NCBI GenBank assembly: GCA_016209865.1
Contig: JACQVL010000099.1
Coordinates: 1-7,592, forward strand
Origin: Candidatus Latescibacterota bacterium
Lineage (GTDB): Bacteria; JAAXHH01; JACQVL01
DNA: 7,592 nt
Reading direction: 5' to 3'
Shown here piece after piece: positions 2,208-6,593 of the stretch. Under the pieces are notes generated by a model. The model did no database searches, was not told the DNA's origin, and saw only the letters and a list, made by a program, of their open reading frames with translations. The position numbers and the translations under genes were made by a program. Numbering within the stretch: position 1 is the first letter of the stretch; each line of letters opens with the position of its first letter.

Positions 2208-4286
2208 GTGCAGATGCTCGTCATTCACTGTGATGTCCTGTTCGATGGGGCATCAGTTCTCTCGTGCTCTCTCGTGTTCGTCGGGCTGGTGTTCGCCGGG
2301 GTGTTCTTCGACCTCGGCCGGCCGGTGATCGGCGGGTGGCTCGGCGGCGGGCGGGTCATCAAGGAGAGGGCGCGCGACCGTTATCTCCTCTGGGGATCGG
2401 AACATTCGCAGGAAGGCGCTGTCCTCTTCGCCGTGGACATCGAGCAGGGCGAGGTCGTCGAACAGCACGAGATCGGCGCGCGGGAGGTGGGCGCCCCGTT
2501 TGTCGATGCAGCGACGGGATTGTTGTATTGTACCACCTATCAAGGTATCAATCAGCCGGGCAACCTGCTCTGGCGCCGCGAACGAGACGGCCGCCTGCGA
2601 AGCTTAGGCTTTCCACCCATTCCCGGCAATCGGTTTCTCTGCGCGGTGCTCGGACGGGATGGGCGCATCTACGCCGGAACCCATCCCGACGGCCATCTTG
2701 CGGCGTACGACCTTGCGCGGGGAGAATGGCGCGACCTCGGCTGTCTCGCTCCTCCCCCGCTCAGACCGGGCCAGCAGGTCTTTCTGTCCGGCCTCTGCAT
2801 CACACCCGGCGGGGAAGTGCTCGGCTCGATCATGCGCGCCCTCCCGCGTATCACGGTCATCTACAACCCGCTGACGGGAGAGACGCGGGTCCTGGAGGGG
2901 TTCGAGGGCAGCCTGCCCATCGTCGAAGGGGAACGGCTGTACCTGAACCGCCCGTCCGGCGTCGAGGTGTACGACGCTGAGTTCCACCTGGTTGAAACCG
3001 TGACGGTTGAGTCGCTCCGCTGCGAGGGTCTCATCACCCCGTCGTCGTCTACACTCTCCGTGGCCGTTGGGGACGGCCAGGGACGCCTATACGGCTGGTG
3101 TAGCCATGATCTGGTGCGCATCGACCCGGATGCTCGCACGATCAGAGTGATTGGGCATCTCAACGGAGGCGGGACGATCGAGCTGACGGACGACGGCCGC
3201 GCGGTCATCCCATCCATCCCGGAGCGCCGGTACACAGTCGTCGACCTCCACTCCGGGAAGACGGACACGCGCACGTTCGTCTATGCCGGACAGCGAGCGA
3301 CCGACATCTGCGGGCTGGCGAAAGGGCCGGATGGGAAGATTTATGGGGCGACGATCATCAGCATGCATCTGTTCCGGTTCGACCCGTCATCACGGGAATT
3401 GACCGACCTGGGACACGTCGGCTGGCCGGGCGGAGAGGTGTACGACCTGATCGCGTACGACGACCGGATGTACTTAGGGTCGTACACCGGGGCGATCTGG
3501 GGAGAATACGACCCGGCACAGCCGTGGCGGCCCGACCCGGCGACGCACAGCACGAGTCCGGCGAGCAATCCTCGCAACTTGGGTCCCTTAGGAGAGCAAC
3601 AAAACCGGCCGTTCGAGTATGCCGTCGGCCCCGATCGCCGCATCTACATCGCCTGCCGGTCGGATTACGGGGTCGGGGGCGGCGCGCTCGCCTGTTACGA
3701 CCCGGCGACGGGAACAAAGACCGTCTATCGGGATCACGACCAGAGCATCCAGTCCGTGGCGGCGAACGACCGGTATGTGTACGGGGGGACGAGCATCCGC
3801 GGGGGACGGGGCTGGGCGGAGACGACGTGCGAGGGAAGACTGTTCGTCTTCGACCCGGGCCAGCGCCGGCGCATCTTCGAGCTGGTGCCGGTCACGGGCG
3901 CGATCGCCGTGACCTCCCTGGCGGTCAGCCCGGTCACCCGTCTGGTCTACGGGACGACGGACACGTGTCGGCTCTTCGCGTTCGACCCGGACGCGCTGCA
4001 GGTCGTGCAAACCTGGACGCTCCGCAACCCGGGAACCCCGCTGATGGGCGTCCCCGAAGCGTACGGGATCATCCATCTCACCGCCGGGAGCGACGGGGAT
4101 ATCTACGGGGTCACCCGGTACGATGTCTTTAAGCTCGACCTCTCGACCGGCCGGATCATCTACCTCGACCAACCGCCCATTCCTGACCTGTATCAGATCG
4201 TCGAAGGCGCGCCCGGCGTGTTCTACATCGGCGCGCGATCGCACCTGTTGGAGTACCACCTGCGGGATATCCCGCATTACCGTTGA
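2208..4286 (+). CDS. Large protein of about 13 beta-propeller-like repeats, possibly membrane-anchored
   Basis: A 692-residue protein dominated by a repeating pattern G-[RKD]-[IL]-Y-[GA]-x-[TS] ... [FY]-D-P-x-[TS]-G ... D-L-G. The Tyr-centred strand recurs near residues 107, 155, 204, 245, 295, 333, 379, 422, 480, 525, 581, 633 and 673, an average period of about 47 residues. This fits blades of a beta-propeller, and 13 blades would make two tandem six- or seven-bladed propellers. No catalytic motif or named family is recognisable; ligand binding, sugar/lactone handling or a scaffold role are all possible. Residues about 16-36 are hydrophobic (VLSCSLVFVGLVFAGVFF) and could be a signal anchor, with a basic stretch following. 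The GTG at 2208 lies 4 nt after GGGAG; the ATG at 2214 is an alternative with 10-nt spacing. The first 50 residues are less propeller-like, so a later start cannot be excluded. The stop lies 11 nt before the aldolase ATG, suggesting one transcript. Confidence 0.75.
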   Translation: MQMLVIHCDVLFDGASVLSCSLVFVGLVFAGVFFDLGRPVIGGWLGGGRVIKERARDRYLLWGSEHSQEGAVLFAVDIEQGEVVEQHEIGAREVGAPFVDAATGLLYCTTYQGINQPGNLLWRRERDGRLRSLGFPPIPGNRFLCAVLGRDGRIYAGTHPDGHLAAYDLARGEWRDLGCLAPPPLRPGQQVFLSGLCITPGGEVLGSIMRALPRITVIYNPLTGETRVLEGFEGSLPIVEGERLYLNRPSGVEVYDAEFHLVETVTVESLRCEGLITPSSSTLSVAVGDGQGRLYGWCSHDLVRIDPDARTIRVIGHLNGGGTIELTDDGRAVIPSIPERRYTVVDLHSGKTDTRTFVYAGQRATDICGLAKGPDGKIYGATIISMHLFRFDPSSRELTDLGHVGWPGGEVYDLIAYDDRMYLGSYTGAIWGEYDPAQPWRPDPATHSTSPASNPRNLGPLGEQQNRPFEYAVGPDRRIYIACRSDYGVGGGALACYDPATGTKTVYRDHDQSIQSVAANDRYVYGGTSIRGGRGWAETTCEGRLFVFDPGQRRRIFELVPVTGAIAVTSLAVSPVTRLVYGTTDTCRLFAFDPDALQVVQTWTLRNPGTPLMGVPEAYGIIHLTAGSDGDIYGVTRYDVFKLDLSTGRIIYLDQPPIPDLYQIVEGAPGVFYIGARSHLLEYHLRDIPHYR

Positions 4287-4292
4287 AAGGAG
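4286..4292 (+). promoter_or_regulatory. Strong ribosome binding site of the aldolase gene
   Basis: AAAGGAG starts on the last base of the propeller gene's TGA and ends 5 nt before the ATG at 4298. It shows that the ATG, not the upstream in-frame TTG at 4283, is the start. It also makes translational coupling with the propeller gene likely. Confidence 0.75.
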
Positions 4293-4297
4293 CCTTC

Positions 4298-5053
4298 ATG
4301 CGTAATCCAGTGAAAGAGAAGTTGCGTCGAGGAGAAGTCACCTTGGGAGTCGCGGTCGGGACTCCCTGTCTTGATCTGGTGGAGATGCTCTCGCGGATGA
4401 ATTTCGACTGGATCTGGTTCGACGCGGAGCACGGGCCGCTGAACACCGAGATCCTCCAGGCCATGCTCCAGGTCGGCCGCGGCGGGCAGGCGACGTCGAT
4501 CGTCCGCGTCCCCTGGAACGACCTGGTGCATATCAAGAAGGCGCTGGATGTCGGAGCTCAGGGGCTGATCATCCCGTGGGTGAATACCCGTGAGCAGGCG
4601 GAGATGGCTGTACGTGCTGCGAAGTACCCGCCAGAGGGGATTCGCGGGATCGGCCCGCGGTGGGTCGCCACGGCGGGTGAGGACACAGCCGAGTATCTTC
4701 GAACCGCCAACGACGAAGTGCTGATCATCGTTCAGATCGAAACGCGCGAGGCGGTGAATAACTTAGAGGCGATCATCACCACGCCTGGTATCGATGCGTT
4801 CCTCATCGGGCCGAGCGACCTGGCGGCTTCGTTAGGCCATCTCGGCGATAACGCGCATCCGGACGTGCAGGCGACGATTGACGACATCATCGAACGAGGG
4901 AAGAAGGCAGGAGTGCCGGGCGGGTTCGCGACGGCACCGCCCGCGGAATGTGAGAAGCGGATCAAACAGGGGTTTCAGTTGATCACCATCGGCAGCGACC
5001 TCGGCTTCATCCGGCAGGGCGCGCAGGCGGTGCTGGCGCATTTTGGGCGGTAA
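4298..5053 (+). CDS. HpcH/HpaI-family class II aldolase
   Basis: A 251-residue cytosolic enzyme of the HpcH/HpaI aldolase/citrate lyase family, a metal-dependent TIM barrel that reversibly splits 4-hydroxy-2-keto acids into pyruvate and an aldehyde. Members include 4-hydroxy-2-oxoheptane-1,7-dioate aldolase (HpaI), 2-dehydro-3-deoxyglucarate aldolase (GarL) and the rhamnonate-pathway enzyme RhmA. The key residues are present and in almost the same numbering as HpaI: H45 in FDAEHGPLN, R70 in IVRVPWND, metal ligand E148 in QIETREAVNNLEAI, and metal ligand D174 in GPSDLAASLG. Length and C-terminus are normal. The substrate cannot be told from sequence: no neighbouring dehydratase or sugar-acid gene points to galactarate, rhamnonate or homoprotocatechuate. 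The ATG at 4298 is supported by AAAGGAG. The gene follows the propeller gene by 11 nt and runs head-on into hisD, with the ACGTT hairpin between them. Confidence 0.93.
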   Translation: MRNPVKEKLRRGEVTLGVAVGTPCLDLVEMLSRMNFDWIWFDAEHGPLNTEILQAMLQVGRGGQATSIVRVPWNDLVHIKKALDVGAQGLIIPWVNTREQAEMAVRAAKYPPEGIRGIGPRWVATAGEDTAEYLRTANDEVLIIVQIETREAVNNLEAIITTPGIDAFLIGPSDLAASLGHLGDNAHPDVQATIDDIIERGKKAGVPGGFATAPPAECEKRIKQGFQLITIGSDLGFIRQGAQAVLAHFGR

Positions 5054-5057
5054 CTAC

Positions 5058-5147
5058 ACGTTAGCACGTTCATACGTTCGAACGTTGACACGTTCTATTA
5101 GCCTATCTTTAACGTGCCAACGTGTGAACGTTCAAACGTGCTAACGT
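5058..5147. repeat. Inverted array of ACGTT octamers forming a 37-bp imperfect hairpin
   Basis: The left arm (5058-5094) is ACGTT repeated at an exact 8-nt period: ACGTTAGC, ACGTTCAT, ACGTTCGA, ACGTTGAC, ACGTT. The right arm (5111-5147) holds the complementary form at the same period: AACGTGCC, AACGTGTG, AACGTTCA, AACGTGCT, AACGT. The arms pair at 31 of 37 positions around a 16-nt loop (5095-5110). The element fills the gap between the convergent aldolase and hisD genes and includes the last two sense codons and the stop codon of hisD. Position and folding suit a bidirectional transcription terminator or 3'-end protector, but there is no U-tract after either arm. It could also be a member of a dispersed palindromic repeat family. 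Confidence 0.85.
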
Positions 5148-6469
5148 TGTCTTATCTTGACCGCGGCCGCGTGGGCGGTGAGGCCCTCCGCCTCAGCCAG
5201 GGCGATGGCGGCAGGCCCCAGCCGTTGGCCGGCCCGGCCGTTCACCACGAACAGGCTCGTCACCTTCAGAAAATCGCGGACGCTGAGCGGGGACGCGAAC
5301 CGCGCCGTCCCGCCGGTCGGCATGATGTGACTCGGCCCGACGACGTAGTCGCCCAACGCCTCGGACGACTGTTCGCCGACGAACATGCCGCCCGCGTGCT
5401 TCACCCGGCCGACGAGCGCCCACGGGTCGCGGACGAGCAGGCAGAGATGTTCGGGCGCGTACTCGTTCGCTAAGTCGATCGCCTCATCCAGGCTGGTCGT
5501 GACGACCACCCCCCCGTTCCGGGCGAGTGACTCGCGGATGATGGACGCCCGGTCGAGACGGTCGATCTGTCGGGCGACTTCTGCGCTGACCGCTTCAGCG
5601 AACGAACGAGACGGCGTCATCAGGATCGCGCTCGCTAAGGCGTCGTGCTCCGCTTGCGCGAGCAGGTCGGCCGCCGCGTACGCCGGGTTGGCGGATTCAT
5701 CCGCGATCACGAGCGTCTCCGTCGGGCCGGGTAACTGGTCGATGTCGACAACCCCGTACACCTGCCGCTTCGCTAAGACGACGAACAGCCCGCCCGGTCC
5801 GAGGATTTTGTCCACGCGTGGGATCGACTCCGTCCCGTACGCGAACGCCGCGATCGCCTGCGCTCCGCCGACCCGGTAGACAGCATCTACCCCTGCAGTC
5901 CTGGCAGCCGCCAAGACGGCCGGGTTGACTCGCCCGGTTCGGTCTGCGGGAGTCGCAACCGCGACATGGGCGACTCCGGCGACACGCGCGGGAATGGCGG
6001 CCATCAGCAGGGACGATGGGTAGGCGGCCTGGCCGCCCGGCACGTAGAGGCCGACCCGTTCGAGCGGGCGGACGAGATGGCCGACTCCGCCGTCCTCATC
6101 CCAGTGGACCCACGAGCCTGTCGGTTGGCGTTCATGGAAGCGCTTGATCCGGTCGGACGCAGCCTGTAGCGCCTCATGGAGGGACGCCGGGATCGCGGCC
6201 AGCGCTGCGTCGAGCTCCTCCGGCTCGACTCGAAACGCGCTCATCTCCATCCCATCGATCCGCTTCGCGTACTCCCGCACCGCGCGATCCCCGTCCCGAC
6301 GGACATCCCGGATGATCCGGGACACCGCCTGGTCCGGACTCAGTGACTCTCCGAAGATGAGCCGGAGCCGTTCCGCGATCTGTGGGGTCACCTCCGCTTC
6401 ATCCGGCGGCCGCCGGACGAGGATGGTCGTTCGCGCCTCCTGAGCGGAAAGAATGCGGATGACGTCCAT
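5141..6469 (-). CDS. hisD: Histidinol dehydrogenase family protein
   Basis: A 442-residue cytosolic enzyme matching the full length of histidinol dehydrogenase, the NAD- and zinc-dependent enzyme that oxidises L-histidinol twice to L-histidine. Counting from the ATG at 6469, the four zinc ligands of the E. coli enzyme (Q259, H262, D360, H419) are all matched: Q272 and H275 in LLAQAEHD, D374 in LGDYVVGP, and H433 in AEAEGLTAHA. The catalytic Glu-His pair is present at E340-H341 in EYAPEHL, and PSHIMPTGGTARF follows. The GPTET signature (usually GPSE) is known from some HisD subgroups; GPGG replaces the usual GPGN. The start at 6469 has GGAG 6 nt upstream; an ATG at 6481 would add four residues with a weaker site. 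No other his gene is visible, so a HisD-like dehydrogenase on another amino alcohol is possible. The gene lies downstream of the DgcN-like gene on the same strand, with a repeat in the spacer. Confidence 0.92.
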   Translation of the reverse strand: MDVIRILSAQEARTTILVRRPPDEAEVTPQIAERLRLIFGESLSPDQAVSRIIRDVRRDGDRAVREYAKRIDGMEMSAFRVEPEELDAALAAIPASLHEALQAASDRIKRFHERQPTGSWVHWDEDGGVGHLVRPLERVGLYVPGGQAAYPSSLLMAAIPARVAGVAHVAVATPADRTGRVNPAVLAAARTAGVDAVYRVGGAQAIAAFAYGTESIPRVDKILGPGGLFVVLAKRQVYGVVDIDQLPGPTETLVIADESANPAYAAADLLAQAEHDALASAILMTPSRSFAEAVSAEVARQIDRLDRASIIRESLARNGGVVVTTSLDEAIDLANEYAPEHLCLLVRDPWALVGRVKHAGGMFVGEQSSEALGDYVVGPSHIMPTGGTARFASPLSVRDFLKVTSLFVVNGRAGQRLGPAAIALAEAEGLTAHAAAVKIRQR

Positions 6470-6475
6470 AGAGGG

Positions 6476-6479
6476 CTCC
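6476..6479 (-). promoter_or_regulatory. Ribosome binding site favouring the 6469 start of hisD
   Basis: On the - strand GGAG lies 6 nt before the ATG at 6469 and overlaps the alternative ATG at 6481. The alternative start has only AGG-T close to it. Confidence 0.5.
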
Positions 6480-6502
6480 ATCTACCTGTCAACCCGGGCA
6501 AT

Positions 6503-6586
6503 CACCACAAAGACACAAAGCGCACAAAGAAAGGCGATCAAACATTTTTCTCAGATTTTCTTCGTGTCCTTTGTGCCTTTGTGGTG
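6503..6586. repeat. Inverted repeat of CACAAAG units
   Basis: The left arm (6503-6532) contains CACAAAG at 6506, 6514 and 6523. The right arm (6557-6586) contains the complementary CTTTGTG-type units. The arms pair at 26 of 30 positions around a 24-nt AT-rich loop (6533-6556). The element occupies most of the spacer between the DgcN-like stop (6594) and the hisD start (6469). Related CACAAAG/CACAGAG-type inverted repeats are a recurring intergenic class in many environmental bacterial genomes, where they are often mistranslated as short hypothetical proteins. No U-tract follows on the - strand, so it is not an obvious intrinsic terminator and need not split the two genes transcriptionally. 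Confidence 0.8.
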
Positions 6587-6593
6587 AATCCCA

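Follow-up and report, generated by a model that had tools for sequence, protein, structure and literature searches.

The 7,592-nucleotide stretch of Candidatus Latescibacterota DNA analysed here (the window) contains, between two convergent genes, a 90-base element of regularly phased ACGTT cores (positions 5058–5147), and the question that this locus raises is whether such an element is maintained for the hairpin that it can form, for its own spread, or for a sequence that is read. The element consists of two facing 37-nt arms, 16 nt apart, each of which carries five ACGTT cores with an exact 8-nt period. The left arm (5058–5094, plus strand, ACGTTAGCACGTTCATACGTTCGAACGTTGACACGTT) has the spacers AGC, CAT, CGA and GAC, the right arm (5111–5147, read on the minus strand as ACGTTAGCACGTTTGAACGTTCACACGTTGGCACGTT) has the spacers AGC, TGA, CAC and GGC, and the loop between them (5095–5110) is CTATTAGCCTATCTTT. 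Both arms are exact matches to the pattern (ACGTTNNN)x5, i.e., (ACGTTNNN)x4-ACGTT, for which no arm match was obtained in 200 dinucleotide shuffles of the window. The arms pair at 31 of 37 positions, exactly as a first-pass annotation of the window had described (25/25 core and 6/12 spacer positions), and the predicted fold of the element is strong for both nucleic acids (RNA, -43.7 kcal/mol, z -7.26; DNA, -30.4, z -7.21).

The convergent setting described in the same annotation is also correct. On the plus strand, a gene of the HpcH/HpaI aldolase family (4283–5053; Pfam PF03328, E 2.3e-37) ends with a TAA stop codon (5051–5053) located 4 nt from the left arm, and on the minus strand the 3' end of the histidinol dehydrogenase gene hisD (5141–6481; Pfam PF00815, E 9.2e-158) overlaps the right arm. 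The final codons of hisD are CAA CGT TAG, and the TAG (5141–5143) lies inside the outermost unit of the right arm, ACGTTAGC; hisD takes its stop codon from the element. A scan of positions 4900–5300 revealed no U-tract or terminator-like sites, promoter patterns were likewise not found in the scan, and no curated RNA family of Rfam matches the window.

Comparison with relatives suggests that the element is a local addition to a conserved gene pair. No ACGTT arm is present in 15 genomes of the same order, even with up to 3 mismatches allowed, and at least 11 of these 15 relatives keep the convergent hisD–aldolase neighbourhood without the array. The HisD protein of the source genome ends in KIRQR, whereas that of the relatives has a longer tail (e.g., RRRLSKDRNGD after HAMAI), a difference that is consistent with hisD having received an insertion at its 3' end; at about 65% protein identity, the exact insertion boundary cannot be drawn. 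The source lineage thus appears to have acquired the element by insertion where the 3' ends of hisD and the aldolase gene meet.

The element belongs to a multi-copy family. The source genome (G000) is a 3.75-Mb metagenome-assembled genome, 83% complete and the sole genome of its family, in which we identified some 33 elements with a total of about 51 distinct arms, confirming the earlier suggestion of a dispersed palindromic family; the reversed pattern, used as a control, gave no match in this genome. There are 47 forward and 42 reverse matches with four units and 86 and 77, respectively, with three; the regions around every four-unit match were inspected. A single copy in the genome and a lack of conservation had been named as grounds for discounting the element; neither holds for the family, although relatives lack this particular site. 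Eighteen elements have two facing arms with loops of 5–58 nt and about 15 are single arms, often self-palindromic, and the arm length is nearly always exactly five units. Two contigs (C23 and C208) both end in one copy of the element (L032 1–140, L048 1–100), a probable assembly overlap at the repeat, so that the copy counts are slightly uncertain.

The repeat unit of the family is ACGTT-N-R-M with a period of 8. In the 51 arms, which were found by a search that tolerated 3 mismatches over 33 informative positions with a pattern that itself partly imposes the unit statistics, 1214 of 1224 core positions (~99%, the first base of the first core being excluded) are intact, the second spacer base is a purine in 198/204 cases, the third is A or C in 203/204, and the N base is near even and close to random. 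Few of the arms used the three allowed mismatches; decayed copies are thus nearly missing. The units are heterogeneous inside single arms. In 13 of 17 two-arm elements exactly one arm starts with GCGTT instead of ACGTT, both arms doing so in 1/17 and neither in 3/17. Pairs of arms with near-identical spacers (at least 10/12 equal) number 18, where 9.6 +/- 3.1 are expected, an excess too weak for shared descent of the copies to be judged from spacer similarity, and this approach was set aside.

The placement of the copies relative to genes is non-random. In the source genome, 24 elements are located in gaps between tandem genes, 3 in convergent and none in divergent gaps, with 5 others overlapping a predicted gene end and 3 at contig ends; these assignments come from a gene caller of our own, which was based on codon usage, was trained on the regions concerned and recovered the genes of the window. 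The expectation that copies would lie at convergent 3' ends was therefore too narrow. Divergent gaps account for 0/30 of the gaps with an element and for 27/138 of background gaps (Fisher p 0.005; background gaps of at least 60 nt, our own gene calls, and regions that are a non-random sample). For the tandem copies, the median distance is 2 nt from the upstream stop codon to the element and 22 nt from the element to the next start codon, with 22 of 24 within tight limits. The upstream stop codon is often inside the first unit, and the room after the last unit is about that of one ribosome-binding site. The distance of about 22 nt to the next start is too short for a promoter, and transcription must therefore read through the tandem copies. 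Judged by reading, the outer-G arm sits on either side relative to transcription about equally often.

All of the two-arm copies that were folded fold strongly on either strand (z -2.9 to -10.9). However, the pairing derives from the fixed cores, and mismatches at inner positions are favoured. Identity between the spacers of the two arms (73/192) is below that of permuted pairs (87.5 +/- 6.0), and the arms disagree at 28 of 34 third spacer bases in units 3–4, against 17.2 in permuted pairs (p 0.0004), or at 22 of 26 when the arm type is kept (p 0.0012). Perhaps the inner mismatches avoid a perfect long palindrome. Compensatory base changes, which the first-pass annotation had proposed as the sign of a selected hairpin, are absent between arms across the copies: the cores are invariant and the spacers match less often than permuted ones. 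Compensatory spacer pairing was hence rejected. Because the spacers are uncompensated and the cores do not change, it is the sequence of the unit that is conserved and not base pairing, a result that argues for a sequence-specific reader rather than for a plain hairpin under selection. Invariant cores beside a free N at about 33 unrelated sites require either such a reader or a generator of degenerate spacers. Local ACGT-TNRM-ACGT tetraloop hairpins were also considered as an RNA signal and were dropped because, given the opposed polarity of the arms, the loops are displayed on one strand per arm only. A multi-site protein target, one of the earlier suggestions, fits the conservation of sequence best, though no such protein was found.

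The family is not limited to the source genome. When 84,980 species genomes were scanned, the two-arm pattern was matched by 83 stretches in Abditibacteriales (Armatimonadota), several Chloroflexota, KSB1, Calditrichota, Poribacteria and further lineages, and the four-unit pattern yielded 39 stretches in viral contigs, although the scan matches include simple repeats with other spacers that may be a different family. Carrier genomes have from 1 to 300 copies and the distribution is patchy, with 15/100 genomes of one family carrying arrays. In eight groups of carrier genomes, the copies lie in 58 tandem, 8 convergent and 3 divergent gaps; a second set, from the bacterium Bin_019, lies in 20 tandem and 1 convergent gaps, and many copies in this genome have their arms fused into contiguous boxes without a loop, the polarity turning at the centre. 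In SKYG70 and some Chloroflexota the arrays are longer and more homogeneous. The presence of similar elements at gene junctions of several unrelated phyla points to a shared reading factor. No convincing orthologous site was found in other array-bearing genomes (13 tblastn rows), and no match in plasmid records, where the low-complexity filter of BLAST may hide any. One viral-labelled contig (IMGVR_UViG_3300037264_008483) carries inverted pairs of another octamer (ACGTTTCG/CGAAACGT) of opposite polarity with stop-to-start placement (L078 9734–9833, L101 2230–2343).

Other short-period arrays accompany the ACGTT family. A lag scan made without a consensus identified 74 period-7 arrays, with a modal length of 30–33 nt, in 400 kb of the source genome, compared with 0–2 at most other lags (multiples apart); the ACGTT family appears at lag 8 and not at lag 7. 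Neighbours of the same family no more than 150 nt apart are inverted in a ratio of 8:1 for the heptamers and 10:0 for the octamers. The main heptamer family consists of AGTGAC plus one variable base, limited to G, A or C at the 100 listed places; it has 65 + 55 four-unit matches in the source genome and none in the 15 relatives. These heptamers are nearly absent from the other octamer carriers, and the two families thus do not travel together. Within the window, a single array of this heptamer family (TCACTCGTCACTTGTCACTCGTCACTG, 453–478) is located between a FlgD-like gene and the next gene, and a second inverted pair, TCACCACAAAGACACAAAG... and ...CCTTTGTGCCTTTGTGGTGA (6503–6588), with the layout of the element at 5058–5147 and a different unit, lies between the tandem DUF1611 gene and hisD. 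Inverted heptamer pairs of several families, with 24–110 nt between the arms, were also observed at L034 4236–4343, L053 6696–6785, L059 7817–7966, L256 383–516 and L267 2767–2906. One relative that lacks the ACGTT family (G013) has period-8 arrays of other units (ACCTGCCT, CAAATCAC) at L236 4951–5011, 7526–7597 and 8647–8700.

Several known systems resemble the ACGTT family in part. Short tandemly repeated repetitive (STRR) sequences are heptanucleotide arrays of cyanobacteria. Like them, the ACGTT family has a short tandem unit with a fixed core and degenerate positions and many dispersed intergenic copies, with several families per genome, and the source genome also has heptamer families that resemble STRRs. 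Unlike STRRs, the ACGTT unit is 8 nt long with a palindromic ACGT core, a three-base spacer and a fixed number of five units, its arms mostly form inverted pairs that make one hairpin, and its hosts are non-cyanobacterial. The met-box operators of MetJ are tandem 8-bp boxes centred on ACGT (consensus AGACGTCT) and are found in promoters. The 8-bp step and the ACGT centre are shared, whereas the ACGTT sites avoid promoters. Comparison with integron attC sites, by reading, indicates that the ends of the ACGTT elements are ACGTT/AACGT and not RYYYAAC/GTTRRRY, and that the copies are dispersed.

Short intergenic repeats related to STRRs sit in the Nostoc hyp operon (PMC2408588), and TAACTGA direct repeats occur in Beggiatoaceae, Cyanobacteria and Bacteroidetes, mostly just upstream of start codons with some overlapping upstream stop codons; a post-transcriptional role has been proposed for the latter, and no mechanism of their spread is known (PMC4679880). 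Both TAACTGA, a 7-nt unit, and ACGTT form dispersed intergenic sets of a short unit that are patchy across distant phyla, but the TAACTGA repeats are direct and in one orientation (1 inverted case in 170), whereas the ACGTT repeats are degenerate octamers in inverted pairs (PMC4679880). REP elements occur as extragenic singles and as inverted dimers (REPINs), which in many families have spacers of 20–100 bp and can form one large hairpin, and some REP families exist without a resident RAYT (PMC3733652). The ACGTT family likewise consists of extragenic palindromes in which singles and inverted dimers are both present. Unlike REPs, its copies share no sequence outside the cores and have an internal 8-nt phase; the GTAG/CGTC tag is absent, the outer flanks being (A/C)ACGTT or AGCGTT. 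No match to Y1_Tnp/RAYT (PF01797) was found in the 83%-complete source genome or in SKYG70, the two richest genomes, and a RAYT/Y1 transposase was rejected as the mover on that account. The ACGTT family is a new variant among STRR-type repeats, with the layout of REP dimers, and by their defining features it is a member of neither. In the literature searched, which lay largely outside subscription papers, we saw no account of a family of ACGTT octamers.

Of the explanations considered, we tentatively prefer one in which the elements are dispersed, STRR/REPIN-like inverted arrays that were inserted, owe their retention to a sequence-specific factor and act as transcribed junction hairpins. Their copy number, geometry, placement and absence from relatives are established by the data, whereas insertion, selection and the role in mRNA are inferences. 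The factor is suggested by cores that are 99% intact, a random N and the lack of decayed copies, and it would be what keeps the ACGTTNRM units. The element itself would work after transcription, most likely as the junction hairpin: most copies, lying within co-directional runs of genes, would be copied into mRNA and form an imperfect hairpin between cistrons, and the copy at 5058–5147 would form one at two convergent 3' ends. Such a hairpin could be used by the factor or by RNases to protect the upstream 3' end or to separate the expression of the two cistrons. Against this account, no trans-acting factor was found, the spacers are not paired beyond chance, which means that hairpin strength itself is not conserved, and an RNA-level signal would not require the outer-G arm to occur on either side equally.

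Somewhat unlikely, in our assessment, is a non-autonomous mobile palindrome (REP/REPIN- or MITE-like) that prefers gene ends and brings the host no benefit, its arms serving as the recognition sites of a transposase. Such an element would account for dispersed copies as inverted pairs and singles, for the same gene pair without the element in relatives, for the fact that the element provides the hisD stop codon, for the patchy occurrence within one family and for copies on some viral contigs. It would also predict shared spacers or even decay, whereas near-random spacers and ~99% intact cores are observed; in addition, a Y1_Tnp/RAYT is absent from G000 and SKYG70, the GTAG/CGTC tag is lacking and a target-site duplication was not established.

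By analogy with MetJ, the arrays could instead be double-stranded DNA operators, in which each 8-bp ACGT box would bind a dimer of a cooperative, ribbon-helix-helix-like protein and the whole would serve as a roadblock, nucleoid or insulator site. This reading, which we consider unlikely, gains from the 8-bp period and palindromic centre, from conservation that concerns sequence rather than pairing with a PWM-like unit ACGTTNRM, and from the contiguous, loop-free boxes of Bin_019 and the indifference to orientation. However, the sites avoid promoter regions (none divergent) and sit within co-directional runs, and the polarity flip at the centre of two-arm copies would be superfluous in a simple array of boxes.

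Improbable is a functionless microsatellite formed by octanucleotide slippage and inverted by template switching at the palindromic ACGT: the longer, locally homogenised arrays of SKYG70 and some Chloroflexota are what slippage would yield, but source-genome units differ within an arm whose length is almost fixed at five, and this one unit is seen at some 33 unrelated sites and across several phyla, with non-random placement. Very improbable, in turn, is that the arrays are written and not copied, by an enzyme that would add ACGTTNRM units to a count of five at gene ends with the degenerate spacer built in, such that each copy would be born with different spacers and perfect cores; the lack of decayed copies, the near-even N, the restricted R and M and the sister AGTGAC heptamer families of like design are compatible with this. 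A bidirectional intrinsic terminator for the convergent pair, as the first-pass annotation had suggested, is likewise very improbable, the strong hairpin between the convergent stop codons (z -7.3) notwithstanding, as both a U-tract and a terminator-like match are absent and most family members lie between tandem genes, ~22 nt from the next start, which leaves too little space for a promoter.

Although short degenerate intergenic arrays such as STRR and TAACTGA were recognised decades ago, they still lack a mechanism. The ACGTT family provides a sharp handle on them, owing to its fixed register, its fixed number of units and its invariant cores beside near-random spacers, together with its exact placement between stop codon and ribosome-binding site, its recurrence in distant phyla and its absence from the corresponding gene pair of relatives. 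This combination indicates that something reads the ACGTT sequence, and the reader could therefore be found by pull-down or by strain comparison.
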